Shown in pieces: positions 19,901 through 38,396 of a DNA stretch of 64,000 nt. Within the stretch, counting starts at the first letter, position 1; every line of letters starts with the position of its first letter. Under the pieces are notes generated by a model. The model was not told the DNA's origin and made no database searches. It saw nothing but the letters and a program-made list of their open reading frames with translations. Both the position numbers and the translations under genes were made by a program. The stretch is taken from assembly GCF_900107925.1 (NCBI RefSeq), contig NZ_FNUJ01000002.1, positions 186,001 through 250,000 of the forward strand, read 5' to 3'. The stretch comes from Amycolatopsis pretoriensis (GTDB lineage Bacteria > Actinomycetota > Actinomycetes > Mycobacteriales > Pseudonocardiaceae).

Positions 19901-19921
19901 CGATAGGCTCTCGAGCCTTGC

Positions 19922-19992: not shown

Positions 19993-19993
19993 C

Positions 19994-20065
19994 GCGCGAT
20001 TAGCTCAGCGGGAGAGCGCTTCCCTGACACGGAAGAGGTCACTGGTTCAATCCCAGTATCGCGCA
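19994..20065 (+). tRNA. tRNA-Val (anticodon GAC), likely island attachment locus
   Basis: Acceptor GCGCGAT/ATCGCGC with discriminator A, anticodon stem cttcc/ggaag around CTGACAC (GAC) and T-loop GGTTCAATCCC. The 3' end faces the integrase remnant that starts about 100 bp downstream, the arrangement expected for integration into a tRNA 3' end. I found no second copy of the tRNA tail to define the far attachment site. Confidence 0.96.
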
Positions 20066-20077
20066 CTCGATCGCAGG

Positions 20078-22788: not shown

Positions 22789-23835
22789 ATGGACCGCGCC
22801 ACCACCGAAGCATTGTTCGCCCCGCTCGACCTGGAGCAGGCCCTGCACCTCCTCGATTCGCTGACCTGGTTTCCGGAGAGCGAAGAAAACCGCTGGCCAC
22901 GAGTAGCCGACTACGTGGCTCGCAACGTCACGACGGTGCCCCGGCCGGATCCCGGTGACTGCCGGTCCGTGGCGGATCGCGCCATGGCCCTCGCCGGCTC
23001 GCCGGCCGGTCACGGAAACCCCTCGGAGCGAACGGGCCGCTGGCGTGACGTGCCGGACGCCAAGGCGCTGTACCAGGTCAAGTACGACCTGATGTCGTTG
23101 CTCTACCCTGATGACTGGTTCACCTACATGAACATGGGTTACCAGGCCACGGAGAACGAAGCCGTGGCACCCGCAGCTGATGAGCCCATCCAGACCTCGA
23201 TCTGGCGCTACGCGCAGCAGCTGTATGACTTGGTCGCGGCGCAGGCACCGCTCGAGGGTAAAGACCTGCTCGAGGTGGGCAGTGGCCGCGGCGGCGGCGC
23301 GGCCTTCGTCACCACAACGCACTCACCCCGGTCGGTGGTCGGTCTCGACTACTCGCCGAACAACGTCGAGTTCTGCAGCCGGGTGCACCGCATTCCCGGG
23401 CTCGACTTCCGGCATGGCGACGCCGAGGATTTGCCGTTCGCCGATCACACCTTCGACGCCGTGCTCAACATCGAGTCGGCGCACTGCTATCCGGATGTCG
23501 ATCGCTTCTTCTCCGAAGTCCGCCGTGTGCTGAAGCCGGGCGGGCACCTCCTGTTCGCCGACGAATGGTGGACGATCCGCAAGAACGAGCTCGCGGAAAA
23601 GGTCTCGGCCGCGGGCCTGCGTGTCGTCGCCGAAGAAGACATCACCGACGGTGTCATCCGCGCGTTGGACGAGTTGCCGAACTATGTCGAGAAGCTGCTG
23701 GTCGACCTGGAGGATGGCGCACAGAAACGAGCCTACGCACGGTTCTTCAACGAACGCGTCTGCCGCGAGTCGGCGCACTCGTACCGATCCGGCCGATTCG
23801 TATTCCTGCGCCAACTGGCGGTCCGTGATGCCTGA
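22789..23835 (+). CDS. SAM-dependent methyltransferase of the YcaO-TfuA cluster
   Basis: The 348-residue protein has an unusual N-terminal extension of about 105 residues before a class I methyltransferase domain. Visible are YMNMGYQ, typical of lipid/sterol-type methyltransferases, the SAM motif LLEVGSGRGGG, GLDYSPNNVEF, GDAEDLPFADHTFDAVLNIE and RRVLKPGGHLLFADEW. As first gene of the operon it probably methylates the peptide or a building block. By analogy with thioviridamide, where a methyltransferase and a PhyH-type hydroxylase act on the core His, the His of the candidate precursor is one possible target (inference). The ATG at 22789 is taken as start; its ribosome-binding site is weak (TAGGGA). 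Confidence 0.88.
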   Translation: MDRATTEALFAPLDLEQALHLLDSLTWFPESEENRWPRVADYVARNVTTVPRPDPGDCRSVADRAMALAGSPAGHGNPSERTGRWRDVPDAKALYQVKYDLMSLLYPDDWFTYMNMGYQATENEAVAPAADEPIQTSIWRYAQQLYDLVAAQAPLEGKDLLEVGSGRGGGAAFVTTTHSPRSVVGLDYSPNNVEFCSRVHRIPGLDFRHGDAEDLPFADHTFDAVLNIESAHCYPDVDRFFSEVRRVLKPGGHLLFADEWWTIRKNELAEKVSAAGLRVVAEEDITDGVIRALDELPNYVEKLLVDLEDGAQKRAYARFFNERVCRESAHSYRSGRFVFLRQLAVRDA

Positions 23836-23875
23836 TCCTTCTGACAACGCTCGAGCGCGAACCCCGGAGGCACTT

Positions 23876-24034
23876 GTGACAGATGACAAAGAACGTGAGC
23901 CCGACGAACAGCGGACCACGGAAACTCCACCGCCGCACGGAGATGGCGGCACCGAAGACGATCGACAGGAGTACTTCGAGCAGCTGGCCGCAGTCCGCAA
24001 CAGCATTCTCGAAGGTGTCATCACCCATTGGTGA
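23876..24034 (+). CDS. Candidate RiPP precursor peptide, C-terminus ITHW
   Basis: This 52-residue peptide starts at GTG with GGAGG five bases upstream. A start at ATG 23828, overlapping the methyltransferase stop, would give 68 residues. The first 30 residues are very acidic and disordered-looking (DDKEREPDEQRTTETPPP). A helix-like stretch follows (QEYFEQLAAVRNSILEG), then the short hydrophobic end VITHW. An acidic leader with a helical recognition segment and a short tail, placed between a methyltransferase, a PhyH oxygenase and a protease and upstream of YcaO-TfuA, fits a RiPP precursor. It could instead be a carrier or scaffold peptide. No homologue is known to me. Confidence 0.6.
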   Translation: MTDDKEREPDEQRTTETPPPHGDGGTEDDRQEYFEQLAAVRNSILEGVITHW

Positions 24035-24067
24035 TTCGACGGCTCCTCGAAGGAAGGTCGGGAACGC

Positions 24068-24901
24068 GTGACTCGCACCGAACCCAACACGTCCCCTGAA
24101 ATCGGATCCCCACAGTTCGCGGAGTTCCGCGAGCAGGGATTCGCCGGGCCGATGACACTCATGGAGCCGGCCGAGATGGCCGCGCTTCGGCCGGCCGTCG
24201 ACGAAGTGCTCGCCACACGCGGCCTCGCGCCCGAGCCGTCGACCGAGCAGTCGTCGGGGAGGCTGTCGGCCTTGGTCGCCCAGCACCGCAGCGGGAGTCC
24301 GGTGCCCTTCATCGAATGCCGGCATCTCGACTCCCCCGTCGTACACCGCTTGTGCACGCACCCGCGGCTGCTGGCCGTAGCCCGCGCTCTGTACGGGGCA
24401 GACCTGCTGCTCTGGCGGTCGACGTTCATTGCGAAGGCGTCCGGCGGACCGGAGTTCCACTGGCACCAGGACTGGGGTGGTGTGCATGCCCCGGGCGACG
24501 AGTACGGCCTGGAACCCCCGATGTCCTTCACGTTCTGGATAGCGCTGACCGAAGCCACCGAGGAGAACGGTTGCCTGCGGTTCATCCCCGGCGTTCGCGC
24601 GGTGCTCCCGTCCCGGCCGGCGAACGCCGGGCAACGGGCGACGATGCTCGTCGACGACCAGGATGTGGACACCTCCGAAGTCCGGTCGTTGCCGCTGCAA
24701 CCAGGCCAGTTCGCGGTCTTCACCGATCGGGCTCTGCACGCGTCGGGTCCCAACACCTCGGGGGCCGAACGACTCGGCCTGGCGGTCAGGTACACGGTCC
24801 CTGCCGTCCGGGTCCGCGGGCATTTCCCCGGCCACGCCTGCCTGGTGGCATCCGGAGCGGATCGCGCCGGGTTGAACGTCATCGCCGCACCGCCCACCTG
24901 A
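24068..24901 (+). CDS. PhyH-family Fe(II)/2-oxoglutarate dioxygenase
   Basis: The 277-residue protein belongs to the phytanoyl-CoA dioxygenase family. The iron ligands are visible as the HxD pair in FHWHQDWGG near residue 138 and the distal His in DRALHASGPNTSG, with the 2-oxoglutarate-binding Arg in ERLGLAVRY. SFTFWIALTEATEENGCLRF is the typical central strand block. Hydroxylation of the precursor or of a building block is expected; in thioamitide pathways a related enzyme beta-hydroxylates a core histidine. GTG is the start, with AAGGAAGG about 11 bases upstream, 33 bp after the precursor stop. Confidence 0.92.
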   Translation: MTRTEPNTSPEIGSPQFAEFREQGFAGPMTLMEPAEMAALRPAVDEVLATRGLAPEPSTEQSSGRLSALVAQHRSGSPVPFIECRHLDSPVVHRLCTHPRLLAVARALYGADLLLWRSTFIAKASGGPEFHWHQDWGGVHAPGDEYGLEPPMSFTFWIALTEATEENGCLRFIPGVRAVLPSRPANAGQRATMLVDDQDVDTSEVRSLPLQPGQFAVFTDRALHASGPNTSGAERLGLAVRYTVPAVRVRGHFPGHACLVASGADRAGLNVIAAPPT

Positions 24902-24914
24902 AGGACGCTGAAGC

Positions 24915-25919
24915 ATGATGACCGACCCCAGCCACCGGCCACCGCGGATCGAAGGCGATGCCGGCGGTGTGCCGAGGACCACCGGCAAAGGTCTGGTGGT
25001 GGCGTGGACGGGTGTGGAAGGAACGGGCCGCGAATACGCGGTGGCGTTGTCCCGCCCGTTCAGCACCGTGGCTGACCGCACACAGTGGTCCCGGTCCGTC
25101 GAGGGCATCGCCGCCGCCCACGACTCCGCGCTCGTCCTGCTACCCGAGGACGAGTTCGACTTCTCCACGGCCAACGCACTGATGCGCGACGGCGTGACCT
25201 ACCGGCTCCCGATCGGCGTGCTGCCCGTGCCCGGAGAAAGCCGGGCGGCCCGCGACCTCACCACCCGCGCTGTCGAACACTGGAGAAGACCGGACCACTC
25301 GGCGCACCGGTTGGCGCTGTACTGCGATTTTCGCTCGGAGCCGCCGACCCGGACGGCGTGGGCCTTCGGGTCCGCCGGTTCCGACGAGTTCGTCGAACGG
25401 CTCCGTACCGGAGTCGAGGCGGTCGTACTCCACAGTCACGGCAACGGTGCCGATTTCCGCGTGGGGAAACACGTGCTCTGCCATCAGGCCGACAGCTCCC
25501 GGCCGGCGCGCGGCCGCTCCGGCGAGCGGTTCCTGCCGTGCCAGGGCGGCGGCCCGTGCCGTCTCGAACACCGGACCGAATTCACGGCTTTCCACGGCGT
25601 AGGTGCCGTGCGGGCTCGCCTCGTGGTCGTGCTGTCGTGCTCGGCCTTCCAGCCGGCCGACGGTATGTTGCAGCCGCGGTTCCAGTTCGCCGGCGGGATG
25701 CTGTCACGGGCCGGCCACGCGGCCGGGCTCGTCGCTTCGACGAGGATCAACCACCAGACCCCGCGGCTCGGGGTGGCGGTCGCCCGCCTGCTCGACGACG
25801 GCGCGCCGCTCGGCGAGGTGGCCATGCGGATCAACCTCCTGTCTTCGGCGCCACCGTCATACCTCTGCGTCGGTGATCCCGATCTGAGCCTGACCGCAGT
25901 CGAGCCGGAACCGTCGTGA
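24915..25919 (+). CDS. Caspase/C25-like cysteine protease, probable leader peptidase
   Basis: The 334-residue protein shows a caspase-clan His-Cys dyad: VVLHSHGNGADF near residue 175 and VVVLSCSAFQ near residue 242, each ending a hydrophobic strand as in gingipain- or CHAT-type folds. GLVASTRINHQTPRLG and SYLCVGDPDLSL complete the C-terminal half; the last resembles the GDP-L end of C25 peptidases. No signal peptide is seen, so it acts in the cytoplasm, where cleavage of a RiPP leader is the natural role. The ATG follows the PhyH stop by 13 bp. The next gene starts at the overlapping GTGA of its stop. Confidence 0.75.
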   Translation: MMTDPSHRPPRIEGDAGGVPRTTGKGLVVAWTGVEGTGREYAVALSRPFSTVADRTQWSRSVEGIAAAHDSALVLLPEDEFDFSTANALMRDGVTYRLPIGVLPVPGESRAARDLTTRAVEHWRRPDHSAHRLALYCDFRSEPPTRTAWAFGSAGSDEFVERLRTGVEAVVLHSHGNGADFRVGKHVLCHQADSSRPARGRSGERFLPCQGGGPCRLEHRTEFTAFHGVGAVRARLVVVLSCSAFQPADGMLQPRFQFAGGMLSRAGHAAGLVASTRINHQTPRLGVAVARLLDDGAPLGEVAMRINLLSSAPPSYLCVGDPDLSLTAVEPEPS

Positions 25920-26536
25920 ACCAAGTCACCGCCGCTCAGCTCCGGCTGGCCAGGGCCGCCGTCGCAGCCGGCGACTACCCGGCTTCGCTCGGCGCGAATC
26001 TGGTCGAGGCGCTGGCCGGATCGACGACCGACGCCGATCGCCTGCTCGCACACTTCCTCGGCGTGGTGTTGAGTGTGCGCGGACCGGACGTGCACGGCTA
26101 CTTCGGTTCCGCCCTCGGCTACAGCCCCGAACGAGCGGTGCGGGAGCGCCACCACTGCGGACGTCACCAGCTGGTTTTCCGGATGGTCCTCCACGATCTC
26201 CCGGAGGCGTCGCGCGATCTTCACGTGTGCGAACGGTGCGGTCCGGCGTCCGCCACCCCCACCGGGATACCACCCGCGCGAGTCGAGATCGAGGGACCGG
26301 CCACGGCTCGGGTCGCCTTGCCCGGTCCGCTCCGCACGTCCGGGTGGGTCGCGGCCGGCCTGCAGCCGATCGGTGGTCACGTCGAAGCGCATGACCACCT
26401 CCGCCCCCTGGCTCCCGGTACCTCCGAATTGGAGTTCCGGCTGTCGAGGGGCAATACCGCCGGTTTGCGCAGGTTCGCTGCCGCAGTGGTGAACGGCGGC
26501 GAGTTCGCCATCGTCCAATTCCCCCTGGAAGGCTGA
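25916..26536 (+). CDS. Unknown Cys/His-containing cluster protein
   Basis: The 206-residue protein starts at a GTG overlapping the protease stop. The N-terminal half is helical (TAAQLRLARAAVAAGDYPAS). A possible metal site is formed by RHHCGRHQ near residue 80 and HVCERCG about 27 residues later. The C-terminal half looks like a small beta domain. I recognise no family. The strict overlap with the protease and the 11-bp gap to YcaO suggest a part in peptide processing, perhaps as the leader-binding or scaffold protein, since no separate recognition domain is otherwise visible. Confidence 0.6.
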   Translation: MNQVTAAQLRLARAAVAAGDYPASLGANLVEALAGSTTDADRLLAHFLGVVLSVRGPDVHGYFGSALGYSPERAVRERHHCGRHQLVFRMVLHDLPEASRDLHVCERCGPASATPTGIPPARVEIEGPATARVALPGPLRTSGWVAAGLQPIGGHVEAHDHLRPLAPGTSELEFRLSRGNTAGLRRFAAAVVNGGEFAIVQFPLEG

Positions 26537-26547
26537 GAGGCGTCCCC

Positions 26548-27840
26548 GTGCTGGACCTGAACACCCGTTACCCAAAGGAACACCGCACCGGCACCCACCG
26601 GTCCCGGACCCCGGCCGAGACACTGACCGACTTCGGAACCCGCATGGAGCGCATCGGGATCACCAGACTGGCCAACATGACCGGCCTGGACTGGATCGGG
26701 ATCCCGGTCTACAACGCGATCCGGCCGAACTCGCGTTCCTTGTCGGTGTCACAAGGCAAAGGTGTCGACCACGACGCCGCGAAGGTCTCCGCCATGATGG
26801 AATCAATCGAATACTGGCACGCGGAGGTGTTCGACGGCCCGCTGCGGCACGACTCCTACCGCGAGCTCAGCGTCCGCGAGCCGGTGATCGACGTCCACCA
26901 GCTACCCCTGCGCGGTGGCTTGGACACCATCGGCGCCGCCCGCCAAACCCCCGCACGCGCCCAGCTGCGGACGGACCTGCCGACGCTGTGGGCACGGGGC
27001 TACGACCTCCTGCGGCAAAGCCCGATGTGGGTGCCGCACGAAACGGTCCGGCTGAACAAGGTGGGCCTGGACTACGCCGCCACGACGTTCCGGGTCGGTT
27101 CCAACGGCCTCGCCTCCGGGAACAGCCTGCCCGAAGCGATCGTGCACGGCATCTGTGAACTGGCGGAGCGCGATGCCCTCACCATGTGGTGGAACGGCCT
27201 GCAGGACCGGGATCACGTCGAGGCGACCAAGCTCGGCCTGGACACAGTCACCGACCCCGTGTGCACGGGCCTGCTGGAGCAGTTCGACGCGGCCGGCATC
27301 GACGTGGTGGCCTGGGATGTCACCTGTGACACCGAGATCCCGGCCTACCAAGTGTGCGTCGCCGAGCGTGAGCAGCGCGCCTCGTGGCGGTCGTTCGGGG
27401 CGTGCTGGGGCTACGGTGCCCACACCAGCCCGGCCGTCGCGCTGTCCCGGGCGCTGACCGAGGCCGCGCAGAGCCGGGTGACCGTCATCGCGGCGAGCCG
27501 GGACGAAAACTTCCGGACGATGTACCACGCGCAGAACGACGCCGAGACGCTGCGCCGCACCCGAGAAGCCTTTTTCTCCCAAGCCGGCACCCACCGGTTC
27601 GACAGCACCCGGGGCGTCGACAACCCGACGGTCAACGAGGACCTCGACGATCTGCTGACCCGGTTGCGCAATGCCGGTATCGACCAGGTGGTGGCGGTGG
27701 ACCTCACCCGACCGGACATCGGCATCCCGACCGCGAAAGTCATCATCCCCGGTCTGGAGTACTACTCGTTGTTCGTCGGCTACGCCCCCGGCCCGCGGGC
27801 GCGCCGACGTCAGCCGCGGCCGTCGGAGGCGATTTCATGA
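26548..27840 (+). CDS. YcaO-domain enzyme, TfuA-associated (probable thioamide synthetase)
   Basis: YcaO proteins phosphorylate a backbone amide with ATP so that a nucleophile can replace its oxygen. The 430-residue protein has the Mg-ATP motifs SAMMESIEYWHAE, then SGNSLPEAIVHGICELAERD and SRALTEAAQSR. It lacks a fused E1/ocin-ThiF partner and a clear C-terminal PxPxP. The next gene, overlapping as ATGA, is a TfuA, the partner found with thioamide-forming YcaOs in thioviridamide-type RiPPs and in methyl-coenzyme M reductase. Thioamidation of the precursor is therefore the best reading. The GTG has GAGAGG upstream. Confidence 0.94.
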   Translation: MLDLNTRYPKEHRTGTHRSRTPAETLTDFGTRMERIGITRLANMTGLDWIGIPVYNAIRPNSRSLSVSQGKGVDHDAAKVSAMMESIEYWHAEVFDGPLRHDSYRELSVREPVIDVHQLPLRGGLDTIGAARQTPARAQLRTDLPTLWARGYDLLRQSPMWVPHETVRLNKVGLDYAATTFRVGSNGLASGNSLPEAIVHGICELAERDALTMWWNGLQDRDHVEATKLGLDTVTDPVCTGLLEQFDAAGIDVVAWDVTCDTEIPAYQVCVAEREQRASWRSFGACWGYGAHTSPAVALSRALTEAAQSRVTVIAASRDENFRTMYHAQNDAETLRRTREAFFSQAGTHRFDSTRGVDNPTVNEDLDDLLTRLRNAGIDQVVAVDLTRPDIGIPTAKVIIPGLEYYSLFVGYAPGPRARRRQPRPSEAIS

Positions 27841-28955
27841 GCGAAGTCGCCCGGGGGCGGGAAGCCTACGTGTTCCTGGGGCCGAGTCTGCCGGTTTCCC
27901 GGGCACGAGAGCTGCTGCCCGCCCGCTACCTGCCGCCGGTCGCCTGTGGTGACATCACCGAACTGGTCCTCGACCGGGAACCTCCGGCCGCGATCGGCAT
28001 CGTCGACGGCTTCTTCGAACAGGTACCGACCGTCTGGCACAAGGAGATCCTGTTCGCCATCAGCCGGGGGGTGCACGTCTACGGCTCGTCCAGCATGGGG
28101 GCGTTGCGTGCCGCGGAGCTGCACAGCTTCGGCATGCACGGCGTGGGGACGGTGTTCGGGAAGTTCCGGTCGGGCGAGTACACCGATGACGACGAGGTGA
28201 CCATCGTGCACGCCGCGGCCGAGGACGGGTACCGGCCGCTCTCCGACGCCATGGTGAACATCCGCGCGGGTCTGGCCGCGGCGGCCGGCACCGGAGTCAT
28301 CGGCGCGGACACCCGGAGGCAGTTGGTGGAGCTGGCCAAGGGGACCTACTACCCCGACCGGTCCTGGTCGCGCCTGCTCGCTGACGGCCTGGCGCGCGGA
28401 CTCCCGGAAACCGAGCTGACCGCGCTCCGGGAGTACGTTCGTGCCGGCCGACCGGACGTCAAGCGTGATGATGCGCTGGCGTTGGTCAAGCGCATGCGCG
28501 ACGACTTGGCCGCCGGCCTGCCGCCGATCGTCGCCTCCTTCGCACTGGAGCCGACGTTCTACTGGGAGAAGCTACTGGCCATCGTCCGCCAGGACCGGGT
28601 GCGGCGAGACGTGGAAGCGCGGTTCGGCGCGACCGCCGGCGCGCTGCACCGATATCTGGCCACCCAGCACCCCGAGGTGCTCGACAAGGCGCTGAGCCGG
28701 GTGCTGGCCGAGCGTGAAGCACGCCGGCTGGGCCTGGTGGACGAGTCCGGCACGCCACTGGCGAGCGATGACCCGGCGGTTCGCCGGGTCCTTCTCCAGC
28801 GGCTGGCGGGCGAGCTGACCGGCCCCGCGTCCGCCGAACTCCAGCGCCTCGGCCTGACCGAAGCCACCCGTTCGGCCTTACGGGTGTCCGGCACGTCGGA
28901 CGGGCGCGCCCTCCCACCGGCTTCCCTGCCTCTCCCGGGAGGCCGTCACGAGTAA
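27837..28955 (+). CDS. TfuA-like protein, YcaO partner
   Basis: TfuA proteins are thought to deliver sulfide for YcaO-dependent thioamide formation, probably by hydrolysing a thiocarboxylated carrier. The N-terminal ~215 residues are diagnostic: YVFLGPSLP, AIGIVDGFFEQVPTVWHKEI, SRGVHVYGSSSMGALRAAEL and GVGTVFGKFRSGEYTDDDEV. The C-terminal ~150 residues are an extra helical extension of uncertain role, ending in a Pro-rich tail. The ATG overlaps the YcaO stop. A 49-bp gap to the cupin gene is the longest within this part of the operon. Confidence 0.94.
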   Translation: MSEVARGREAYVFLGPSLPVSRARELLPARYLPPVACGDITELVLDREPPAAIGIVDGFFEQVPTVWHKEILFAISRGVHVYGSSSMGALRAAELHSFGMHGVGTVFGKFRSGEYTDDDEVTIVHAAAEDGYRPLSDAMVNIRAGLAAAAGTGVIGADTRRQLVELAKGTYYPDRSWSRLLADGLARGLPETELTALREYVRAGRPDVKRDDALALVKRMRDDLAAGLPPIVASFALEPTFYWEKLLAIVRQDRVRRDVEARFGATAGALHRYLATQHPEVLDKALSRVLAEREARRLGLVDESGTPLASDDPAVRRVLLQRLAGELTGPASAELQRLGLTEATRSALRVSGTSDGRALPPASLPLPGGRHE

Positions 28956-29004
28956 CCGGAAGGAGCGTTTTTCCGAGTCGTAGGAATCGAGAGGGGCATT
29001 GAAC

Positions 29005-29442
29005 GTGGAAACAAAGTTCTCACCCGAGGACCACATTCACAATCTGCTCGACGGTGTGCGCCGCGCCATGTACGACGACGCCGGCGTCGAACTCGAAGAC
29101 ATCTTCGGGGTGTCCGGGTCCCGTGCCGAAGCGCTGCCGGACCTCACCATCGGCCTGGACCGCATAGTCATGCTGCCAGGCACGGCGTTCCCGCTGCACG
29201 TGCACCCGGGCGCCCACCTGCTCTACGTCCTCGACGGCCGGGGCGGCCTGCGGGTCGACGGCCAGGACTACGTGCTGGAACGAGGGGACTCCATCTACGT
29301 CCCCGCGGACTATCCGCACGGCGTGCAGGGGCCGGTGGACGACCGGCCGCTGGAATTCCTCGCCTTCGGAGTCCCGCACCACGAGGTCGATTCCACCACG
29401 CGCATGGTGCTGGTCCGCGACGACGAAACCGTCACGTCGTGA
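29005..29442 (+). CDS. Small cupin protein
   Basis: The 145-residue single-domain cupin carries FPLHVHPGAHLLYVLDGRGG (first motif, with the usual Glu replaced by His) and GDSIYVPADYPHGVQG (second motif). Three or four His could hold one metal. Cupins in such clusters act as epimerases, isomerases or dioxygenases, or merely bind. The GTG at 29005 is preferred to TTG 28999 because GAGAGGGG lies eight bases ahead. Its stop overlaps the start of the GTP cyclohydrolase II-like gene. Confidence 0.8.
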   Translation: METKFSPEDHIHNLLDGVRRAMYDDAGVELEDIFGVSGSRAEALPDLTIGLDRIVMLPGTAFPLHVHPGAHLLYVLDGRGGLRVDGQDYVLERGDSIYVPADYPHGVQGPVDDRPLEFLAFGVPHHEVDSTTRMVLVRDDETVTS

Positions 29443-30626
29443 CGGCCCCGGCGATTTCCGGCCCAGCCGTTGTCCCACTGCGTTTCGACGGCGTCGAGAC
29501 GACTTTCGAAGTGTGGCACTTCGACTTCGGCGGTGACCGGTGGATCGCGGCCTGGACCGGTGATCTGCACGACGGCCCCGTTCCCTTGCGCATCGAGTCC
29601 GCCTGTGTTTTCGGGCACGTGCTGCGCTCGGCGCAGTGCGATTGCGGGTTCCAGCTCGAGACCGCGATGACCACCTTCGCCCGTCGCGGACGCGGATTGC
29701 TCCTCTACGCCGTCGACCAGGACGCGCGCGGCCTGGGCATCGCCGCCCACTTCGCCATCTACGCCCTGCGTCAGCAGGAAAAGCTGGACACGGACGCTGT
29801 GTACGCCCGGCTCGGCGCGCCCGTGGACGCTCGCACCTACGACGCCGCGCTGGCAATTCTGCGGCATCTTCAGGTCAGCTCGGTGCGCCTGCTCAGCAAC
29901 AACTCCGGCCGCGACCGGTTCCTGCGGCAGGCCGGGCTCGCCGTCGAGAACGAGCCCCTGGCCGAACCGCTCAACGCGCACAACATGAGCACGCTCATGC
30001 TGGAGAAAGAAGATCTCGGTTACGACTGGTCGTTCGAAACGCACGCCGATTGGCTGGAACCCATGCAAGCCTCCGTGGCCGGCGACGCGGAGCGCAGCCT
30101 GGCCACCTTGGCCGTGCCCGGCAGTGGCAGTACGGCAAACCCGTTGGCGATGGCCGAGGACCTCGGCAGCTGGGAAGTCGCGGCGGCCTTGCGCGCCGGC
30201 GAGCCGCCCGCCGTACCGGACGGGCACCCGGCAGTCGTCTACCTGACCGATCTGCCCCGGGCCGACGAGCTGCCGGTCTACGCCGACTTGGGCGCTTATG
30301 CCGTGGTGGTGCCTTTCGCCGACATTCCGCCGCTGCTGCACCAGGCCGGCCTCCGGGCAGGCATCCGTATCGTGGACTGGGCGCGCCGCAACGCCTACGA
30401 CCCACCACGGCCACAGTGGACGCTCGTGCACGATACCGCCGGCCGGCAGGTCTACGCCCGTGCCGGACGCCTGCGCTACGTCGCCCCTTCCGCGGACCTC
30501 GCCACCGTCCGGAGTTCGAACCTCGCCGACGCCGTCGTCCGGGCCGAGGCGCGCTGGCTCGAACTGGACCCCGGGGCGGCCTCACTCGCCCAGGATGGCG
30601 CGCTGACCGCATTGACCGTGACATGA
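29439..30626 (+). CDS. Divergent GTP cyclohydrolase II-like protein
   Basis: The 395-residue protein has an N-terminal RibA domain (about 1-200) and a C-terminal extension of ~190 residues without a clear family. RibA features are ESACVFGHVLRSAQCDCGFQ with the three zinc cysteines, DQDARGLGIAAHFAIYALR and RLLSNNSGRDRF. Key positions differ from riboflavin RibA: GHVLRSAQ replaces GDALFSLR, and DQDARG replaces RQEGRG. It may act on GTP or another nucleotide and open the ring to a diaminopyrimidine, or on a new substrate. The GTG overlaps the cupin stop, and the next start overlaps its own stop, so it is locked into the cluster. Confidence 0.82.
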   Translation: MTAPAISGPAVVPLRFDGVETTFEVWHFDFGGDRWIAAWTGDLHDGPVPLRIESACVFGHVLRSAQCDCGFQLETAMTTFARRGRGLLLYAVDQDARGLGIAAHFAIYALRQQEKLDTDAVYARLGAPVDARTYDAALAILRHLQVSSVRLLSNNSGRDRFLRQAGLAVENEPLAEPLNAHNMSTLMLEKEDLGYDWSFETHADWLEPMQASVAGDAERSLATLAVPGSGSTANPLAMAEDLGSWEVAAALRAGEPPAVPDGHPAVVYLTDLPRADELPVYADLGAYAVVVPFADIPPLLHQAGLRAGIRIVDWARRNAYDPPRPQWTLVHDTAGRQVYARAGRLRYVAPSADLATVRSSNLADAVVRAEARWLELDPGAASLAQDGALTALTVT

Positions 30627-31288: not shown

Positions 31289-31302
31289 AAGGCAGGTTCA
31301 CC

Positions 31303-32682
31303 GTGCACGTACCCCGGAAGCTCGCCAGCCGCGCCTATTGGCAGAGCCAGCGCATGCGGGGCCGGTCAGCAGTTCACCGGCGCCTGGAGGAGTTACGGGC
31401 CAATCAGCACCTGCCGGCCGAGGTCGTCGACGCCCGGCAGTTCGAAAAGCTGCAGTCCGTTGTGGCGCACGCCTACCGCACCGTGCCGTACTACCGGCAA
31501 GTGATGGACAAGAGAGGCATGCGCGAGATCACCTCCCCGAGCGACCTCCGCGAGCTCCCCTTGCTGACTCGTGACGTGCTGGCCCGCGAGCAGGCCGGGC
31601 TGCTGTCCGAGACGGCCGACCGGGCGACCCTCCAGGCCAACTACTCGAGCGGGTCGACGGGGCGTCGTGCCGAGTTTCGCCAGGACCTCGACTTCCGCAT
31701 GTGGATGCGCGCCCACCAGCTGCGCACCTACGAATGGTGCGCCGGCTGGCAGCTCGGTGACCCGTTCGTCCTGCTGTGGGGGTCGGAGATCTACTGGTCG
31801 TTCAAGCAGACGATGGATCGGCTGGAGAACCTGGCGACCAACCGGCGCGAGTTCAACACTTTCCGGTTGTCCCCGGAGCTGATCACCACGTTCCTGAACA
31901 AGCTCGTCGAGTTCGAACCCGCCTTGATCAGCACCTATTCCAACGCCATGCACCTGATCGCCAAGGGCGCCGAACGGCTGGGCCGGACCATTCCCGGACT
32001 CCAGGCGGTCCAAGGTACGTCCGAGCCGCTGCCGCCCGCCCTGCGCGCCCGGATCGGCGATGTCCTGGGTTGCCAGGTCTACGACAAGTACGGCATGCGT
32101 GAGACCAACATCATCGCCCACGAACAGCCGGGTGGCGGCCCCATGCTGATCCAGTCCGAAAACGTCTACGTGGAATTCCTCGACGACGACGGCGAGCCGT
32201 GTGCGCCCGGGCAGACCGGGCGGATCGTCGTGACCACGTTGAACAACCGCTCGATGCCGCTGTTGCGCTACGAAACCAGCGACTTGGCCGCGCCGCTCCT
32301 CCGCGACCCGGCCGCGCCTCTGCCGTACCCGGCGATGACCACGGTGGCCGGCCGGCTGCAGGACCTCATCCTGACGCCCTCCGGTGACCACGTCGACGCC
32401 TACCTCTTTTCCTACCTGTTCATGCGGTTCCCCGAAGTGGACTGGTTCCAGGTCGTGCAGCGGGAACCCGACCGCCTCGACATCCGGATCTACGCGCCCG
32501 GCGGTCTCGGCAACCGCACCACGGCCGAGCTGGTCGACCGGATCCAGCACCACACCGGCTATCCGTTCGACATCGCGTTCGAGCCACTGGAACGGATGCC
32601 GGAATCCAGCACCGGCAAGTTCCGGCTCTGTGTGTCCGAACTGGACCCGGCCACGCGGAAAGGACTGCTGACCCGTGACTGA
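31303..32682 (+). CDS. PaaK/CapK-type adenylate-forming enzyme
   Basis: The 459-residue protein belongs to the phenylacetate-CoA ligase/coenzyme F390 synthetase branch of the ANL superfamily. The AMP-binding motif is YSSGSTGRRAEF, the adenine/acid motif DKYGMRETN, and the hinge and C-terminal lysine region appears as GRLQDLILTPSG and ESSTGKFRL. Such enzymes activate a carboxylate as acyl-AMP for transfer to CoA, a carrier or an amine. No carrier protein is encoded nearby, so a direct amide or CoA ligase role is likely. The GTG has AAAGGCAGG six bases upstream. The next gene starts within its last codons. Confidence 0.9.
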   Translation: MHVPRKLASRAYWQSQRMRGRSAVHRRLEELRANQHLPAEVVDARQFEKLQSVVAHAYRTVPYYRQVMDKRGMREITSPSDLRELPLLTRDVLAREQAGLLSETADRATLQANYSSGSTGRRAEFRQDLDFRMWMRAHQLRTYEWCAGWQLGDPFVLLWGSEIYWSFKQTMDRLENLATNRREFNTFRLSPELITTFLNKLVEFEPALISTYSNAMHLIAKGAERLGRTIPGLQAVQGTSEPLPPALRARIGDVLGCQVYDKYGMRETNIIAHEQPGGGPMLIQSENVYVEFLDDDGEPCAPGQTGRIVVTTLNNRSMPLLRYETSDLAAPLLRDPAAPLPYPAMTTVAGRLQDLILTPSGDHVDAYLFSYLFMRFPEVDWFQVVQREPDRLDIRIYAPGGLGNRTTAELVDRIQHHTGYPFDIAFEPLERMPESSTGKFRLCVSELDPATRKGLLTRD

Positions 32683-34234
32683 ACTGGATTCATCCCTGTT
32701 GCTCTCGTTCGACGACGGAGCACCACCACCGCCGCCGGCGCCGTTGCCGGCTGCCCTGGATTGGCGGCCACCGCCGCCGGATGCAGCGCCGGTCACGGCG
32801 CTCGTCGACTCCGCTGCCGCCGGCGATTTCGACCTCGGCGACTTCACCACATCGCTGCTCCAGGCCGACGTGCTGGACACGACCGCCATCGACCTTCCCG
32901 GCGCCACGGTCACCCTGCCCTACGGCATGCGGTTGCTCCGCCGGATGGAACCGATCTTGCGGTCGATCTACGAACAGCACGGCTACGAGGAGTACGACTA
33001 CCCCCTTCTGGTGCCGGCGGCGTCGCTGGAGCCGACCCGGACGCTGATGCCGCTGCGGAACTCCCTCGTCATCGCCGGTGACGACAACGACTGGGCCGCC
33101 GGACGCAAGCGCATGGTGCTGACCCCGACCGGGGAAGCCGCCGTCTACACCCATTGGGCGCGCACCGTGCGCAGCCGGACCGACCTGCCCATCCGGGGCT
33201 ATCGGCGCACCCGCTACTACCGACCGGCCCGCGCCGGGCGCAGCGTGTTCCGGGCCATCGAAGCCCTCGACGTGTTCGAGTTCCAGTCTTGTTTCGCCGA
33301 AGAACGCGAAGCTCGCGAGGGCTTCGCCGACGCACTGAAGATGTCCCGTGAAGTATCCACCGCCCTGCACGTGCCGGCGCTGTGGGCGACCCGGCCACCG
33401 TGGACGAACAATGACGCGGTCTCCGATCTGACGGTCGGTGCCGATGTGCCGCTCCCGCAAGGCTCGACGATCCAAGTGGGCAGCGTGTACCAGCAAGGGC
33501 AGCGCTTCTCACGAGCTTACGGAGTGGCCTATCGCGAGAGCGGCGAGCGGATCAACACGTGGCACGTGACCGGCGCGCTGACTCGCCGGTTGCTGCTCAT
33601 GCACCTCATGTTGGGCATGGACTCCCAGGGCGAACTGCTGGTGCACCCGGATCTCGCGCCGGTGCAGATCGGGCTCACGATGTCCACCGCCGACCCGGCC
33701 CAGCGCGCCGAGGCGCGGGAGCTCACCGATCTCCTCGCCGTCCGGGGCGTTCGCTGTGAGCTGCAATTCCCCGAGAATCGCAATCGGGTGAGCCGGCTCC
33801 AGCGGGTGTGGCGCCGGCAGGGCGTACCCCTGCGGATCTACCTGCAACCGGCCCGCAAACCAGGCGAACGGATCAAAGTCGTCGTCGTGCGGGCGGATAC
33901 GCGCGACGAGGCGGTGTTGCTCCCCGGCCGGCTTGCCGGCCTGGCCCAGGGCCTCGTTCGCGCCCTCGACGAAGTCGGTGTCGGCTACCTGCGCCGGACG
34001 CTGGGCTTCGTGGCCCGCCGCTGCCGGCCGGCCGACCGCCACACCGCCAAGGAGGTCCTGGCCGACCGTGCCGTCGCGGTCTTCCCGCTCACCGCGGGCC
34101 GTCTTGAGGTCGAGGAAGTGGCGTCCTGGGGGCTGGGTGAAGTGCTCGGGCTGCGCCGGGTCGCCGAGCCTCGCCCTTGCGTCGTGACCGGGAAGCCCAC
34201 CCGTGCCGTCGCTTTCGTTTCGGCCCGGCGGTGA
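32675..34234 (+). CDS. Archaeal-type prolyl-tRNA synthetase paralogue with altered motifs
   Basis: The 519-residue protein aligns by eye along the whole archaeal/eukaryal-type ProRS. It has a Pro-rich lead (1-75), LPYGMRLLRRMEPILRSIYE, then MVLTPTGEAAVYTHWAR with the amino-acid-binding TxE. A changed motif 2 (FRAIEALDVFEFQS in place of LRTREFLWQEGHT) follows, and a motif 3 region GALTRRLLLMHL. The anticodon-like domain starts at APVQIGLTMS, followed by PLRIYLQPARKPGERIKVVV. The C-terminal zinc domain is degenerate (CVVTGKPTRAV for CxxCGKPA). It has no editing domain. Loss of the zinc site and motif 2 changes suggest it no longer charges tRNA-Pro normally but activates Pro or an analogue for the pathway. 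Confidence 0.85.
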   Translation: MTELDSSLLLSFDDGAPPPPPAPLPAALDWRPPPPDAAPVTALVDSAAAGDFDLGDFTTSLLQADVLDTTAIDLPGATVTLPYGMRLLRRMEPILRSIYEQHGYEEYDYPLLVPAASLEPTRTLMPLRNSLVIAGDDNDWAAGRKRMVLTPTGEAAVYTHWARTVRSRTDLPIRGYRRTRYYRPARAGRSVFRAIEALDVFEFQSCFAEEREAREGFADALKMSREVSTALHVPALWATRPPWTNNDAVSDLTVGADVPLPQGSTIQVGSVYQQGQRFSRAYGVAYRESGERINTWHVTGALTRRLLLMHLMLGMDSQGELLVHPDLAPVQIGLTMSTADPAQRAEARELTDLLAVRGVRCELQFPENRNRVSRLQRVWRRQGVPLRIYLQPARKPGERIKVVVVRADTRDEAVLLPGRLAGLAQGLVRALDEVGVGYLRRTLGFVARRCRPADRHTAKEVLADRAVAVFPLTAGRLEVEEVASWGLGEVLGLRRVAEPRPCVVTGKPTRAVAFVSARR

Positions 34235-35805
34235 CCGTGCCCGCCGTCCGGATAGTCGTCCTGACCGGCGCCCCCGGCGTGGGGAAGAGCGAGGTCGCCC
34301 GCCGTCTGGTACGCCGCTACCGGGTACCGGCCGCGCTCATCGACACCGACATGATGGCCGACATCTACCCGTGGGTCGCGGAACCTCGGACCTACGAACT
34401 CATCGCCCGGAACGTACGCGCGTGTCTGGCCGCATACCGGGAGTGGGGCGCCCGGGTCGTCGTGATCGCCGGGGTACTGCTCCCCGGCCGCGCGCTGGAC
34501 GCCCTCGGCGACCTGCCGGCCGACCCCGGCACCACCTGGATCTTCTACGGCCTCCGGGCGCCGGCCTCGGAAATCGCGGCGCGCATCCACGCCGACACGA
34601 AGGTGCAGGAGCCGGACGGCCGGCTCAGCTGGAGCTTCGTCGACGCCGAGGTACCGGACGTGCCCGGGGTCCGGCTGGTGGACACCGGCGGCGTCCCGCT
34701 GGTGGAGGTCGTGGACCGCCTGGCCGGCGCCGAGTCCCGGGACCTGCCACCCGGCAGCATCCGGCGGCCTGTCCCGCCCCCGGTCGGCGAGTCGGTCCGG
34801 GTGGACGTGGCGCAGGCGGAAGCCGCCTGCCGGGAAGCCCTCGCCGGGGCCGGCATGCCGGCCCCGGCGGCCGCCGCCACCGCCGCCGACCTCGTCGACG
34901 CCGAGCGGCGCGGCCAGCGGTCGCACGGGTTGCTGCGGCTCCCGGAGTACCTGGCGGCGATCTCGGCCGGTGAGCTCGATCCGAGGGCCACACCGATCGC
35001 CCGCCGAACCGGGCCGTCGGCGGTGGTGATCGACGGACGGCGAGCACCCGGCGTGCTGGTGCGGGCGAAGGTCGTGGCCGAGTTCGCGGCCGGCGCCGGT
35101 ACCGTCGCGGTGCGCTCTTCCGGACACCTGGGCCGGCTGGGGCCGCTGGGCCGCGAGGTGGCGGAGCGGGGGCTGGTGCTGCTCGGGTTCGTGAACTACG
35201 CCGGGCACGGCACCAAGGTCGCTCCGGCCGGTGCGTCGGTGGGCCGGTGGGCCACGAACCCGCTCCTCCTGGCGTGCCCCGGCGGGAACGGACGTCCACT
35301 GGTGGTGGACATGAGCACGAGCTCGGTAGCCGAAGGGCGGATCCGCGCGGCCCTGACCGCGGGGAAAAGCCTTCCCCCGGGATTGCTCACCGACCCGGCC
35401 GGCCGGCCCGTCACCGACGCGGCCCTGCTGTACACCGATCCGCCGCGCGCGGCGATCACGCCGCTGGGCGGGCCGGCTCCGCACAAGGGACACGCCCTGG
35501 CCGCCTTCGTGGAGGCGATGGCGGGCGCGGTCGGTGGCGGAGGGCACGTCGGGCAGCCCGGCCCGCCGGGCAACGGCGGGCTGTTCGTGGCCTTCCCGGT
35601 CACCGCCTTCGGCCGGTCGGCGAGCGATGTCGAAGACGCGCTCGCGCGAATCGAACAGCACCTGCGTTCCGTGGCACCCGGTCCGGACGCGCCGCGGCTG
35701 CCCGGTCGTGCCCCGGCGAGCGAGGACTTGCCCGACGCCGTTTCCGTGCCGGTCGCCCTGTGGCGGTCGATCGGTGAAGCGATACCACACAGGAGTGCAC
35801 CATGA
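34231..35805 (+). CDS. Fusion of P-loop kinase and LDH2/malate-dehydrogenase-type reductase
   Basis: The 524-residue protein has an N-terminal P-loop domain (about 1-175) with LTGAPGVGKSEVARRLVRRY and a DTD after strand 2, like small-molecule kinases. From about residue 190 to the end lies an NAD(P)-dependent LDH2/MDH2/YlbC-type reductase: RRGQRSHGLLRLPEYLAAI, AVRSSGHLGRLG, NYAGHGTKVAPAG, GRWATNPLLLACP, VVDMSTSSVAEGRI and HKGHALAAFVEAMAGA. This family includes Delta1-piperideine/pyrroline-2-carboxylate reductases, which make cyclic imino acids. A proline analogue is therefore an attractive product, given the ProRS genes alongside. I know of no such fusion elsewhere. The GTG overlaps the previous stop as GTGA. 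Confidence 0.85.
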   Translation: MTVPAVRIVVLTGAPGVGKSEVARRLVRRYRVPAALIDTDMMADIYPWVAEPRTYELIARNVRACLAAYREWGARVVVIAGVLLPGRALDALGDLPADPGTTWIFYGLRAPASEIAARIHADTKVQEPDGRLSWSFVDAEVPDVPGVRLVDTGGVPLVEVVDRLAGAESRDLPPGSIRRPVPPPVGESVRVDVAQAEAACREALAGAGMPAPAAAATAADLVDAERRGQRSHGLLRLPEYLAAISAGELDPRATPIARRTGPSAVVIDGRRAPGVLVRAKVVAEFAAGAGTVAVRSSGHLGRLGPLGREVAERGLVLLGFVNYAGHGTKVAPAGASVGRWATNPLLLACPGGNGRPLVVDMSTSSVAEGRIRAALTAGKSLPPGLLTDPAGRPVTDAALLYTDPPRAAITPLGGPAPHKGHALAAFVEAMAGAVGGGGHVGQPGPPGNGGLFVAFPVTAFGRSASDVEDALARIEQHLRSVAPGPDAPRLPGRAPASEDLPDAVSVPVALWRSIGEAIPHRSAP

Positions 35806-36590
35806 CAGATCAGGCAGAACCCCTGCTGCACCGCACACCGGCATTGCACCCCGGCTCCGGACGATTCGGTCCGGCCATCGGGATCTTCCTGCTCAGCAGC
35901 GACAGCATGTTCGCCGAGGCCTGCGCGGGTGAACTCGACTGGGTGGTACTGGACATGGAGGCCGCTCCGATGTCCAAACGCGAAGCCGTCCACCTCATGC
36001 AGGCGCTCCGCGGCTCCGGATGCGCACCCGTGGTGCGGGTGCCGTGGGGACAGCAGCACCTCATCGAGCACGCCTTGGACATGGGGGCGTCCGGTGTGAT
36101 GGTGCCCAAGGTGAGTTCGGCCGACGATGCCGCCGCGGCCGCCCTCGCCTGCCGGTTCCCGCCGGCGGGCAGGCGGGGGATCAACCCGGTGCGGGCTTCC
36201 GGCTACTTCACCGACGTGCCCGGGTACTTGGCGAAAGCCAACGACCACATCGCCTGTGTGGTGCAGATCGAGTCGCCCGAAGCGGTGAGCAACGCCGACG
36301 AGATCGCGGCCACGCCGGGCGTCGACGGACTGTTCATCGGAATGGGTGATCTTTCGTCCGGATATGGGCAGCCCGGCGTGATGGAAGGACCGGTCATCGA
36401 CAAGGCACGAGCGGCGGTCCTGGCCGCCGCCGCCCGCCACGGCAAACGAGCCGGCATCTTCGCCTACAGTCGCGAGCTGGCCCGGCGCTATGCCGAAGAG
36501 GGTTTCGGGTTCATCGCGGTCGGCAACGACATCAAGCTCTTCCGCGAAGGGCTCACCGACACCTTGGCCGCTGTCCGGACACCTGTGTAG
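35802..36590 (+). CDS. HpcH/HpaI-family aldolase homologue lacking the catalytic His
   Basis: The 262-residue protein is a class II 2-oxo-acid aldolase homologue. The family carboxylates VQIESPEAV (Glu) and GMGDLSSGYG (Asp) for the metal, VVRVPWG (Arg) and GASGVMVPKV are present. In HpaI the first active-site loop reads DGEHAPN with His as acid/base. Here it is DMEAAPMS, so the His is Ala. Catalysis may be changed (for example decarboxylation or a lyase on another acyl group), or a different residue may serve. The ATG overlaps the preceding stop, with CAGGAG upstream. Making a 4-hydroxy-2-oxo acid for the adjacent reductase is a reasonable but unproved link. Confidence 0.9.
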   Translation: MTDQAEPLLHRTPALHPGSGRFGPAIGIFLLSSDSMFAEACAGELDWVVLDMEAAPMSKREAVHLMQALRGSGCAPVVRVPWGQQHLIEHALDMGASGVMVPKVSSADDAAAAALACRFPPAGRRGINPVRASGYFTDVPGYLAKANDHIACVVQIESPEAVSNADEIAATPGVDGLFIGMGDLSSGYGQPGVMEGPVIDKARAAVLAAAARHGKRAGIFAYSRELARRYAEEGFGFIAVGNDIKLFREGLTDTLAAVRTPV

Positions 36591-36662
36591 GACCGCGAAT
36601 GACGGCCGCCGGTAGAATGCCCCACGCTGTCGGTCGACACTGAAAGTGAAACGAGCTGCCTG

Positions 36663-38351
36663 ATGCGCTGGACACGACTCCACGTCCCGACCCTTCGACA
36701 CGACTCCGCCGACGTGACGTCGCCCAGTCACCGGTTGCTGCTGCGAGGGGGCTTCATCCGTCAGCTCATGGCCGGCCACTATTCGCTTCTGCCACTCGCC
36801 GTCCGGGTGCGCTCGAAGATCGTCGAAGTGATCCGCCAGGAGATGAACCGGATCGGGGCACAGGAATTCCTGCTGCCCGGAATGCACCCGGCAGAGATCT
36901 GGCGGCGTTCGGGGCGCTGGGAAATCATGGGCCAGGAGATGTTCCGGCTGACCGACCGCCGGGGCGCCGACCTCGCCCTGGGTATGACGCACGAAGAGAT
37001 CTTCACGCTGCTCGCCGCGGAAATTTCCACCTACAAGGCCCTACCGCAGGCCTGGTACCAGTTCCAGACGAAATTCCGCGACGAACCGCGCCCGAAAGCC
37101 GGCCTCCTCCGCACCCGCGAGTTCACGATGAAGGACTCGTACAGCTTCGACCTCACCGACGCCGGATTGGACGAGTCGTTCGAACGACACCGCGGCGCCT
37201 ACCAGCGGATCTTCACCAGGCTCGGAATTTCCGCAATCCCCGTCGACGCCTCCAGCGGGTCGATGGGCGGTTCGAACTCGACGGAGTTCATGTCCCCGAC
37301 GGAATCCGGTGAGGACTTCGTCGTGCACTGCGCCGCGTGCGGCTACGCCGCGAACATCGAAAAGGCCGTCTCGGTACCGGCCGCGGCGGCCGAGGCGACC
37401 GGCCCCGGTGAAGTCGAACACTTCGCCACCCCCGACGTGCACAGCATCGACGACCTGGCGTCCGCTTTCGGGATCCCGGCCGATCAGCAGATCAAGACTC
37501 TGGTCTACGTGCTGGACGACCAGCTCACCATCATCTTGCTTCGCGGCGACCACCAGCTGAGTGAACAGAAACTGCTCGACCTCACCGGCACCCTGGCCGC
37601 CCGGCCCGCTCACGCCGACGAGGTCGCCGCCGCGCTGGGGGCCGCTCCCGGCTCCCTGGGCGCGGTCGGCGTAACGGGCGTCCCCGTTCTCGCGGACGAG
37701 GTGCTGCGGGGCCGGGCCCACCTGGTCACCGGTGCCAACCGGGATGGCTACCACCTGCGCGGGGTCGACATCGCACGGGACATCGTCGTGGACCGCTGGG
37801 CTGACCTCCGCGAAGCGGCCGACGGCGAAGGGTGTGTTCGCTGCGGGCAACCCCTCGGGCTGCTCAAGGCGGTCGAGGTCGGGCACATCTTCAAGCTCGG
37901 CCGCAGGTACACCGAATTGCTGGACGCCACCGTGCTCGACGCGGAGGGGCAGCGGGTGCCGATCGTCATGGGCAGCTACGGCATCGGCGTGGAACGGGCC
38001 CTGGCCGCCATCGTCGAGGCCCACCACGACGAAAAGGGCATCGTGTGGCCGCGAGTCGTGGCCCCCTTCGAGATCTGCATCGTGATGACGGCCATGAATG
38101 ATCCCGAAGTCGTCAAGACCGGGGAACGCCTGTACGAAGAACTGCTGGAAGCCGGGGTCGATGTCATACTCGACGACCGCGACGAACGCGCCGGCGTCAA
38201 GTTCTCCGACGCTGAACTAGTAGGCTTTCCGCTGAGGATCACCGTAGGAAAACGGCGCTTGGCCGACGGTGAAGTCGAGATCACGGAGCGAGCTTCGGGC
38301 GACACCCGCGCAGTCAAACTGGCCGACGTTCTCGCTGCGGTCACGGCCTGA
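36663..38351 (+). CDS. proS: Bacterial-type prolyl-tRNA synthetase, likely self-resistance copy
   Basis: The 562-residue enzyme is a full bacterial-type ProRS. The start (PTLRHDSADVTSPSHRLLLR), the MTHEE block, motif 2 LLRTREFTMKDSYSF, the INS editing domain (about 225-400, with DQQIKTLVYVLDDQLTIILL) and motif 3 GSYGIGVERALAAI are present, as are the anticodon domain and the closing GVKFSDAELVGFPLRITVGK. A complete ProRS at the end of a biosynthetic operon that also has a ProRS-like enzyme suggests protection against a product that mimics Pro or Pro-AMP. The start lies 72 bp after the aldolase; TAGAAT at 36613 could be a -10 element for separate expression. The housekeeping proS should be elsewhere in the genome. 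Confidence 0.95.
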   Translation: MRWTRLHVPTLRHDSADVTSPSHRLLLRGGFIRQLMAGHYSLLPLAVRVRSKIVEVIRQEMNRIGAQEFLLPGMHPAEIWRRSGRWEIMGQEMFRLTDRRGADLALGMTHEEIFTLLAAEISTYKALPQAWYQFQTKFRDEPRPKAGLLRTREFTMKDSYSFDLTDAGLDESFERHRGAYQRIFTRLGISAIPVDASSGSMGGSNSTEFMSPTESGEDFVVHCAACGYAANIEKAVSVPAAAAEATGPGEVEHFATPDVHSIDDLASAFGIPADQQIKTLVYVLDDQLTIILLRGDHQLSEQKLLDLTGTLAARPAHADEVAAALGAAPGSLGAVGVTGVPVLADEVLRGRAHLVTGANRDGYHLRGVDIARDIVVDRWADLREAADGEGCVRCGQPLGLLKAVEVGHIFKLGRRYTELLDATVLDAEGQRVPIVMGSYGIGVERALAAIVEAHHDEKGIVWPRVVAPFEICIVMTAMNDPEVVKTGERLYEELLEAGVDVILDDRDERAGVKFSDAELVGFPLRITVGKRRLADGEVEITERASGDTRAVKLADVLAAVTA

Positions 38352-38362
38352 TCCGCGACCAT

Positions 38363-38396
38363 AGTCCGCTCCTGCGTACCTGACGCGGAGCGGGCT
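38363..38396 (+). terminator. Hairpin terminator after proS
   Basis: Arms agtccgctcc and ggagcgggct (one mismatch) enclose an inner gcgt/acgc stem, starting 12 bp after the stop. It ends the 22.8-38.35 kb operon. A second palindrome, gtgcccgcggcgggcac, follows just beyond. Confidence 0.7.

Follow-up and report, generated by a model that had tools for sequence, protein, structure and literature searches.

What might a bacterium make with an operon that joins the enzymes of peptide thioamidation to two relatives of prolyl-tRNA synthetase (ProRS)? Such an operon occupies positions 22789–38351 of a 64,000-nucleotide stretch of Amycolatopsis pretoriensis DNA (assembly GCF_900107925.1, contig NZ_FNUJ01000002.1, positions 186,001 to 250,000), the whole of which is referred to below as the window. 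An earlier sequence-only reading had placed fifteen plus-strand genes here, and all of them were recovered. The two ProRS relatives are called ProX, a paralogue of archaeal-type enzymes, and ProS, a bacterial-type enzyme encoded by the last gene. From comparisons of sequence, we think it somewhat likelier right than wrong that the operon makes an antibiotic inhibiting ProRS, with ProS, whose active site is altered, predicted to protect the producer. The product would most likely be built around a proline-like unit that, in this variant, carries a thioamidated peptide piece. The evidence is stronger for the target and for self-protection than for any single chemical step.

ProS and ProX, the two ProRS relatives

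ProS (36663–38351), a predicted self-protection copy, is a complete bacterial ProRS with an editing domain (NF006625, 694.6 bits). A second ProRS was encoded elsewhere in all seven genomes tested, namely that of the window and those of six of the seven related loci described below (L004–L009 and L075; G625, the source of L075, was left out). In the window's genome this was a further bacterial ProRS, 42% identical to ProS, while each of the six relatives' genomes contained, outside the cluster, a full bacterial ProRS or an archaeal-type ProRS scoring above the curated cut-off. In a tree of 11 ProRS proteins, a branch with 100/100 support split the 8 cluster ProS from the 3 non-cluster bacterial ProRS, and 36 positions were fixed differently between them.

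The residue comparison was widened with four bacterial ProRS encoded in plasmid-collection records, taken from the head of a list of 78, and with a second cluster-type ProRS piece of 205 residues from the genome of L007. All nine cluster-type ProS carried the motif LGMT[HY]EE, in which the M position was P (6) or A (1, B. velezensis) in the seven others; P was also found there in two solved ProRS structures. The motif 2 strand read LPQ.WYQFQ in 9/9 cluster-type ProS, whereas in the others V or L takes the place of Q and L that of W; one residue was missing ahead of this strand in the same nine. Motif 3 read GVER in the eight full cluster ProS versus G[VI]SR in the seven others. Because the TXE loop of ProRS binds proline and motifs 2 and 3 bind ATP, these changes fall within the active site. 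Such changes would be expected in a target copy under selection by an inhibitor that binds there, and the presence in the cluster of an extra, altered ProRS points to ProRS as the target. The proposal of the sequence-only reading that the intact ProRS confers immunity was supported as far as sequence can tell: ProS has the appearance of an immunity copy in its separate clade, its altered active site and the additional ProRS in 7/7 genomes.

The cluster-type piece from L007's genome (L051, G203:C89:4445-5059) lies away from the cluster and is 73% identical to ProS. A proline--tRNA ligase gene was also seen on a 248-kb Paenibacillus polymyxa plasmid (L121, CP097774.1), where it adjoins a fused MFS/spermidine synthase gene.

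The mupirocin, indolmycin, agrocin 84 and borrelidin clusters carry a resistant aminoacyl-tRNA synthetase. The arrangement here is similar, the cluster having a divergent second synthetase besides the one encoded elsewhere in the genome, but differs in that the enzyme guarded would be ProRS. We know of no bacterial cluster that guards ProRS, and a literature search for a bacterial cluster with a self-protecting ProRS found none.

For ProX (32675–34234), a predicted amino-acid activating enzyme, a protein search gave at least 43 ProX proteins (counting that of the window) within the best 7,989 candidates. Of these, 33 were aligned; the other ten (P0004, P0013, P0020, P0022, P0028, P0032, P0037, P0039, P0042 and P0043) were dropped for a smaller set and their residues were not looked at. 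The family profile matched a solved archaeal ProRS (1nj1) with an E value of 2.8e-58 over positions 39–516 of 519, in agreement with the earlier description of an archaeal-type ProRS paralogue. T152, E154, R183, E202 and R305 were kept in all 33 proteins, so that the core catalytic residues, including the TXE and both motif arginines (motif 2 and motif 3), are intact. ProX resembles archaeal-type ProRS along most of its length, but it scores far under the curated family cut-off (113.3 bits against TIGR00408, cut-off 437), falls short of the Pfam cut-off (25.0, cut-off 29.3) and differs in its pocket. The motif 2 Glu of ProRS is replaced by proline (P184, 33/33), V (21) or I (12) stands in for Trp/Phe, and at the His position the residue is Q in 26 proteins and H in 7. 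We infer that ProX is probably an adenylating enzyme with an altered pocket.

A constant core and a variable peptide block

Does the gene set recur? A pattern scan of 84,980 species genomes with the ProX alignment returned 12 stretches, six of which encode relatives (L004–L009); as the scan demanded exact patterns, further relatives may exist. Whole-genome searches added L075, giving seven relatives and, with the window, eight loci. Genes were scored as present in the relatives by tblastn at E ≤ 1e-5, with the flanks extended for L005, L006 and L008. Five proteins were present in 7/7 relatives and 8/8 loci: ProX, ProS, the PaaK-like adenylating ligase (31303–32682; Pfam AMP-binding 38.4 bits, PaaK structure E 4e-17), the LDH2-family reductase and the HpaI/GarL-type pyruvate aldolase (35802–36590; Pfam 137.9 bits). 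The closest solved structures to the last are pyruvate aldolases (E 5.6e-45). The reductase is fused to a P-loop kinase (34231–35805; Ldh_2 213.9 bits), and the closest solved structure to its LDH2 part is piperideine-2-carboxylate reductase, a piperideine/pyrroline-2-carboxylate reductase (E 4.3e-29). The kinase domain was found in five of the seven relatives and, as far as visible, is fused in four; in one relative a masked stretch at the kinase region also hides most of the LDH2. The clusters of L009 and L075 encode a P-loop kinase of a different kind, as a gene of its own.

Around this core the gene content varied. The RibA-like protein, the DUF6939 protein and the cupin each occurred in 5/7 relatives, the methyltransferase and PhyH each in 4/7, and the peptide, caspase-like protein, U206, YcaO and TfuA also in 4/7, the same four each time (L004–L007). 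These last five, here called the peptide block, were all present in 5/8 loci and all absent from 3/8 (L008, L009 and L075). Counted in window genes, L007 had 15/15, L004, L005 and L006 had 14 each, L008 had 9, and L009 and L075, which lack RibA, had 6. Accordingly, L009 and L075 represent a minimal form of the cluster, L008 an intermediate one, and the window and L004–L007 the full one. The constant part of the cluster is ProX, HpaI, LDH2, PaaK and ProS, not the RiPP (ribosomally synthesized and post-translationally modified peptide) part. The label of a RiPP-type operon given by the sequence-only reading therefore held for a conserved set with YcaO, TfuA and a precursor-like peptide, while the RiPP itself was not constant, three relatives having the core without it. 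A chance assembly of unrelated genes, which that reading had suggested would be indicated if the genes never co-occurred or if precursor and YcaO were not conserved together, was rejected, since the set recurs with 14–15 of the 15 genes in 4/7 relative loci and the peptide was found in 5/5 clusters with YcaO and in 0/3 without.

The cluster YcaO proteins are 71–73% identical, and the best YcaO matches in the genomes of L008, L009 and L075 only 30%, 36% and 30%; the cluster-type YcaO is therefore absent from these genomes, as far as the assemblies show, and has not moved elsewhere in them. Gene order across the loci has been rearranged by inversions, and the peptide block of L004–L007 stands in differing orientations relative to the core. 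L004 and L007 are close relatives with nearly identical ProS copies and so represent little more than one event. In the window's family, 56 of 200 genomes gave a match, of which only the window's own was of this kind; the others were 23–45% identical and many were short. One of 392 genomes in the genus of L005 (three candidates scored per genome) and one of 250 in the family of L009 (up to six candidates scored per genome) had the cluster, in each case the known one, and in the genus of L006 it was present in 4/70 genomes, three of them known loci. This rare, patchy distribution over scattered actinobacteria suggests horizontal spread.

The acidic peptide (23876–24034) is a predicted RiPP precursor of 52 residues with 14 D/E versus 5 K/R, a GTG start and GGAGG upstream; in the window it ends in GVITHW. 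Six copies were available (window, L004–L007 and P0044, a Saccharothrix record), all with the C-terminus GVIT-x-W, where x was P four times, H once and Y once. Pairwise comparison of the five DNA copies (ten pairs) across the final 23 codons gave 4–10 silent and 0–7 replacing changes per pair (sums 70 versus 43), although replacing changes outnumbered silent ones in one pair (window/L005). This excess of silent changes makes the frame look selected, mainly in its C-terminal part. A database search with the peptide gave one relative only, as expected for short, rarely annotated genes. On these comparisons the peptide is a real conserved gene, with a precursor-like character.

YcaO (26548–27840; Pfam 272 bits, closest solved structure M. 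jannaschii MJ1094, E 8.9e-36) and TfuA (27837–28955; Pfam 154.1 bits, start checked) are encoded by overlapping genes and occurred together in all five of the eight loci having either. Their best NCBIfam models were McrA-glycine thioamidation proteins, both below cut-off (236.4 of 365 and 209.6 of 235.2, respectively). Thioamidated RiPPs such as thioviridamide-like compounds and thiovarsolins likewise come from operons in which YcaO and TfuA are neighbours and a short peptide is encoded; what differs here is the ProRS-like core and a variable part of the peptide consisting of one residue before the terminal Trp. In the main texts of two TfuA surveys (PMC6511847, PMC8120280), as distinct from their supplements, the terms tRNA, aldolase and cyclohydrolase were absent. 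The literature search by title, abstract start and passages, which likewise did not extend to the TfuA survey supplements, found no description of this gene set, in line with the earlier reader's knowing of no described pathway that has it.

U206 (25916–26536) is a 206-residue protein with a Cys/His-rich stretch and no assigned function, and was the one gene left out of the earlier reading's gene list, which covered 14 of its 15. A search with it gave 8 proteins, the window's own included, and it was seen only beside this cluster type. Beyond the eight loci, Saccharothrix NPDC042600, Streptomyces NPDC051569 and Streptomyces NPDC005402 appeared in both the U206 and the ProX lists. The caspase-like protein encoded just upstream (24915–25919) is a predicted leader peptidase. 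The caspase-like label is weaker than the sequence-only reading put it, as its basis is a pair of conserved His and Cys motifs (HGNGADFRVG and LSCSA, invariant in 5/5) and Pfam gave no match. No fold match reached E ≤ 0.001, the weak ones listed being a xylosyltransferase and many Ig- or fibronectin-like domains; as most of the caspase-like part was modelled at a predicted local distance difference test (pLDDT) score below 50, this says nothing on a caspase fold. In L004 (18036–19817) and L007 (18352–20127) the caspase-like protein and U206 form a single open frame, which suggests that they act jointly.

The caspase-like proteins of L005 (736–2715) and L006 (499–2247) have a long C-terminal extension to which no family was assigned. 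An M16-family peptidase gene lies beside the cluster in L007 (20696–21457), L004 (20385–21146) and L005 (20602–21555); M16 enzymes act in pyrroloquinoline quinone synthesis, and this one might help to release the peptide. Extension of the peptide by a PEARL-type, tRNA-dependent reaction was considered and rejected, there being no LanB-like ligase among the Pfam matches of the 14 larger genes.

A possible route to the product, and its rivals

How might these enzymes work together? An aldol reaction catalysed by HpaI would couple pyruvate with an amino-aldehyde. The resulting 4-hydroxy-2-oxo acid would cyclize to an imine, whose reduction by the LDH2 enzyme would yield a hydroxylated acid resembling proline or pipecolate; phosphorylation of this acid by the kinase may follow. 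ProX could then activate the cyclic acid as an adenylate and hand it to an amine instead of a tRNA, with PaaK activating a second acid. The remaining steps would belong to this variant only. YcaO–TfuA would introduce a thioamide close to the C-terminal end of the peptide. After cleavage of the leader by the caspase-like protein together with U206, the short C-terminal remnant with its final Trp would be attached to the core, perhaps as a means of entry into target cells. The RibA-like protein, DUF6939 protein, PhyH and methyltransferase would decorate the product.

Parts of the evidence would also suit other explanations. The product could be a toxic proline analogue that ordinary ProRS would load onto tRNA for incorporation into protein, that ProS would reject and that ProX would link to a carrier. 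An aldolase of the HpaI type together with a pyrroline-2-carboxylate-reductase-like enzyme suits an amino acid product, and ProS has retained its editing domain and changed beside the TXE loop; yet the motif 3 change in ProS points to the ATP side too, and a free amino acid would leave PaaK and the RibA-like protein without a role (though L009 and L075 have no RibA). We consider this account unlikely. Still less likely, in our view, is that a single transcript serves two independent pathways, one to a thioamidated RiPP and the other to a small molecule from the core that is unrelated to it, with no joint product. The presence or absence of the peptide block as a unit, independently of the core (5/8 loci), and its varying orientation in L004–L007 would agree with such a separation. 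However, U206, with 8 known proteins, stands beside this cluster type in 5/5 loci examined, the three named strains outside the eight loci carry both U206 and ProX, and in the window PhyH and cupin are mixed in with the genes of the block in a single tightly packed operon. That no antibiotic is made at all, the operon instead supplying, under stress, a housekeeping cofactor or a modified aminoacyl-tRNA while ProS acts as a substitute enzyme in translation, appears improbable: ProX does keep the ProRS architecture and core catalytic residues, and ProS is complete, but the very patchy distribution, the company of YcaO–TfuA, oxygenases and ligases, and the cluster-specific active-site changes in ProS all speak against it.

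An antibiotic directed at ProRS, guarded against by ProS, is thus the explanation we prefer, and several points weigh against it as well. The enzyme roles are read from family membership, and no known natural product was matched. The C-terminal domains of ProX still align with ProRS, so that ProX might still charge tRNA, and ProS, being complete with its editing domain, could serve translation under special conditions. Members such as L008, L009 and L075 do without the peptide block, so the peptide cannot be a universal requirement. Finally, no regulator or transporter of the relatives' kinds was found in the window. The sequence-only reading had pointed to this absence; it is true of the window, but several relatives differ, as an HTH-TPR regulator adjoins the cluster in 5/7 relatives (L004 2057–3397, with matches in L005, L007, L008/L076 and L079) and a gene for an ABC-transporter ATPase lies near it in 3/7 (L006, L008 and L005, at 40% identity in L005).

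Known compounds offer partial parallels. Phosmidosine is a prolyl phosphoramidate nucleotide without a thioamide or peptide part; combining proline and nucleotide, it is a conceivable ProRS ligand. It is recorded in S. durhameusis in passages of PMC6429109, and was rejected as the product because, within the passages covered by the literature search, nothing tied it to this gene set and its genes were not found. As a compound with ProRS as its target, the plant product febrifugine is named in a passage of PMC7916415. Microcin C is described in a passage of PMC7136475 as a peptide–nucleotide inhibitor of AspRS. It resembles the proposed product in that a ribosomal peptide part carries a tRNA synthetase inhibitor; the operon differs in having no MccB-like E1 adenylyltransferase among its Pfam matches, and YcaO–TfuA with a ProRS-like activator instead.

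A broader and tentative idea, which we think less likely than not, is that the synthetase fold has been used twice, with ProX remade as a drug-building activator and ProS as a shield. The warhead would be a proline mimic made de novo by aldol addition and imine reduction, and one branch would deliver it on a thioamidated ribosomal carrier ending in tryptophan. The series from the minimal form (six genes plus a kinase) to the fifteen-gene form would then run from a free to a peptide-borne warhead. If the proposed pathway is correct, it would be the first bacterial pathway known to us for a ProRS inhibitor and would supply a tolerant ProS whose substitutions show where the drug would bind. It would also provide a case of a tRNA synthetase turned biosynthetic activator and a kind of thioamide RiPP whose variable part is very short, and the graded natural variants, with 6, 9 or 14–15 window genes, would allow each module to be tested.

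Operon layout, accessory enzymes and flanks

Pfam names the methyltransferase, PhyH, YcaO, TfuA, cupin, GTP cyclohydrolase II-like, AMP-binding, Ldh_2, HpaI and complete ProRS proteins of the operon. With starts of 27837 for TfuA and 31303 for PaaK, seven of the 14 junctions between genes are overlaps of 4–8 bases and seven are gaps of 11–72 bases. The earlier impression that most genes have overlapping stop and start codons was therefore overstated, half of the junctions being of this kind. The hairpin terminator of the same reading survived in part: a strong hairpin (38363–38396, plus strand, −24.4 kcal/mol) lies 3′ of the last stop, but it has no T run, and the terminator pattern, which requires T's, did not fire there.

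The accessory enzymes are spread through the operon. It opens with an S-adenosylmethionine methyltransferase (Methyltransf_11, 22789–23835; Pfam 84.6 bits), and a PhyH-type Fe/2-oxoglutarate oxygenase (24068–24901; 92.6 bits) follows the peptide. Downstream of TfuA are the cupin (28999–29442; 67.6 bits) and the GTP cyclohydrolase II-like, or RibA-like, protein (29439–30626; 106.8 bits). The latter keeps the zinc cysteines in 6/6 copies, scores 99.9 bits against TIGR00505 (cut-off 205.85) and may open a purine nucleotide. The next gene (30623–31288), previously called NADAR-like, was reassigned to DUF6939 (70.7 bits). It had no Pfam NADAR match, and hhalign against 30 NADAR domains gave a Prob of 0.1, no better than four unrelated control alignments (0.1–0.8), in a comparison whose DUF6939 alignment had six rows, so that a remote tie could escape it. 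Its fold search gave no match at E ≤ 0.001 (mean pLDDT of the model 70).

The operon is preceded by three tRNA genes (a tRNA-Gly/Cys/Val array, 19828–20066) and flanked by a repeat of 134 columns, 80.6% identical (20300–20432 and 38577–38709), which is perhaps the remains of an inserted element; Pfam gave no family for the two overlapping frames tried in it. The longest exact repeat of the flanks, 16 bases, sits inside the 134-column repeat and was equalled in 5/255 random segment pairs, and an insertion marked by a perfect repeat was rejected. Carriage on plasmids was likewise rejected, as the operon had no megablast match in 72,556 plasmid records; in these, ProX matches were at most 26% identical (2 records), and ProS and YcaO matches were below 60% identity. 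In two of the relatives, L006 and L008, a Rieske oxygenase gene lying upstream of RibA takes the place of the cupin; these two clusters share this gene along with extra PaaK-like and JmjC-type genes (5441–6652, 14139–15545 and 15581–16564 in L006; 5398–6531, 15858–17225 and 17318–18229 in L008).

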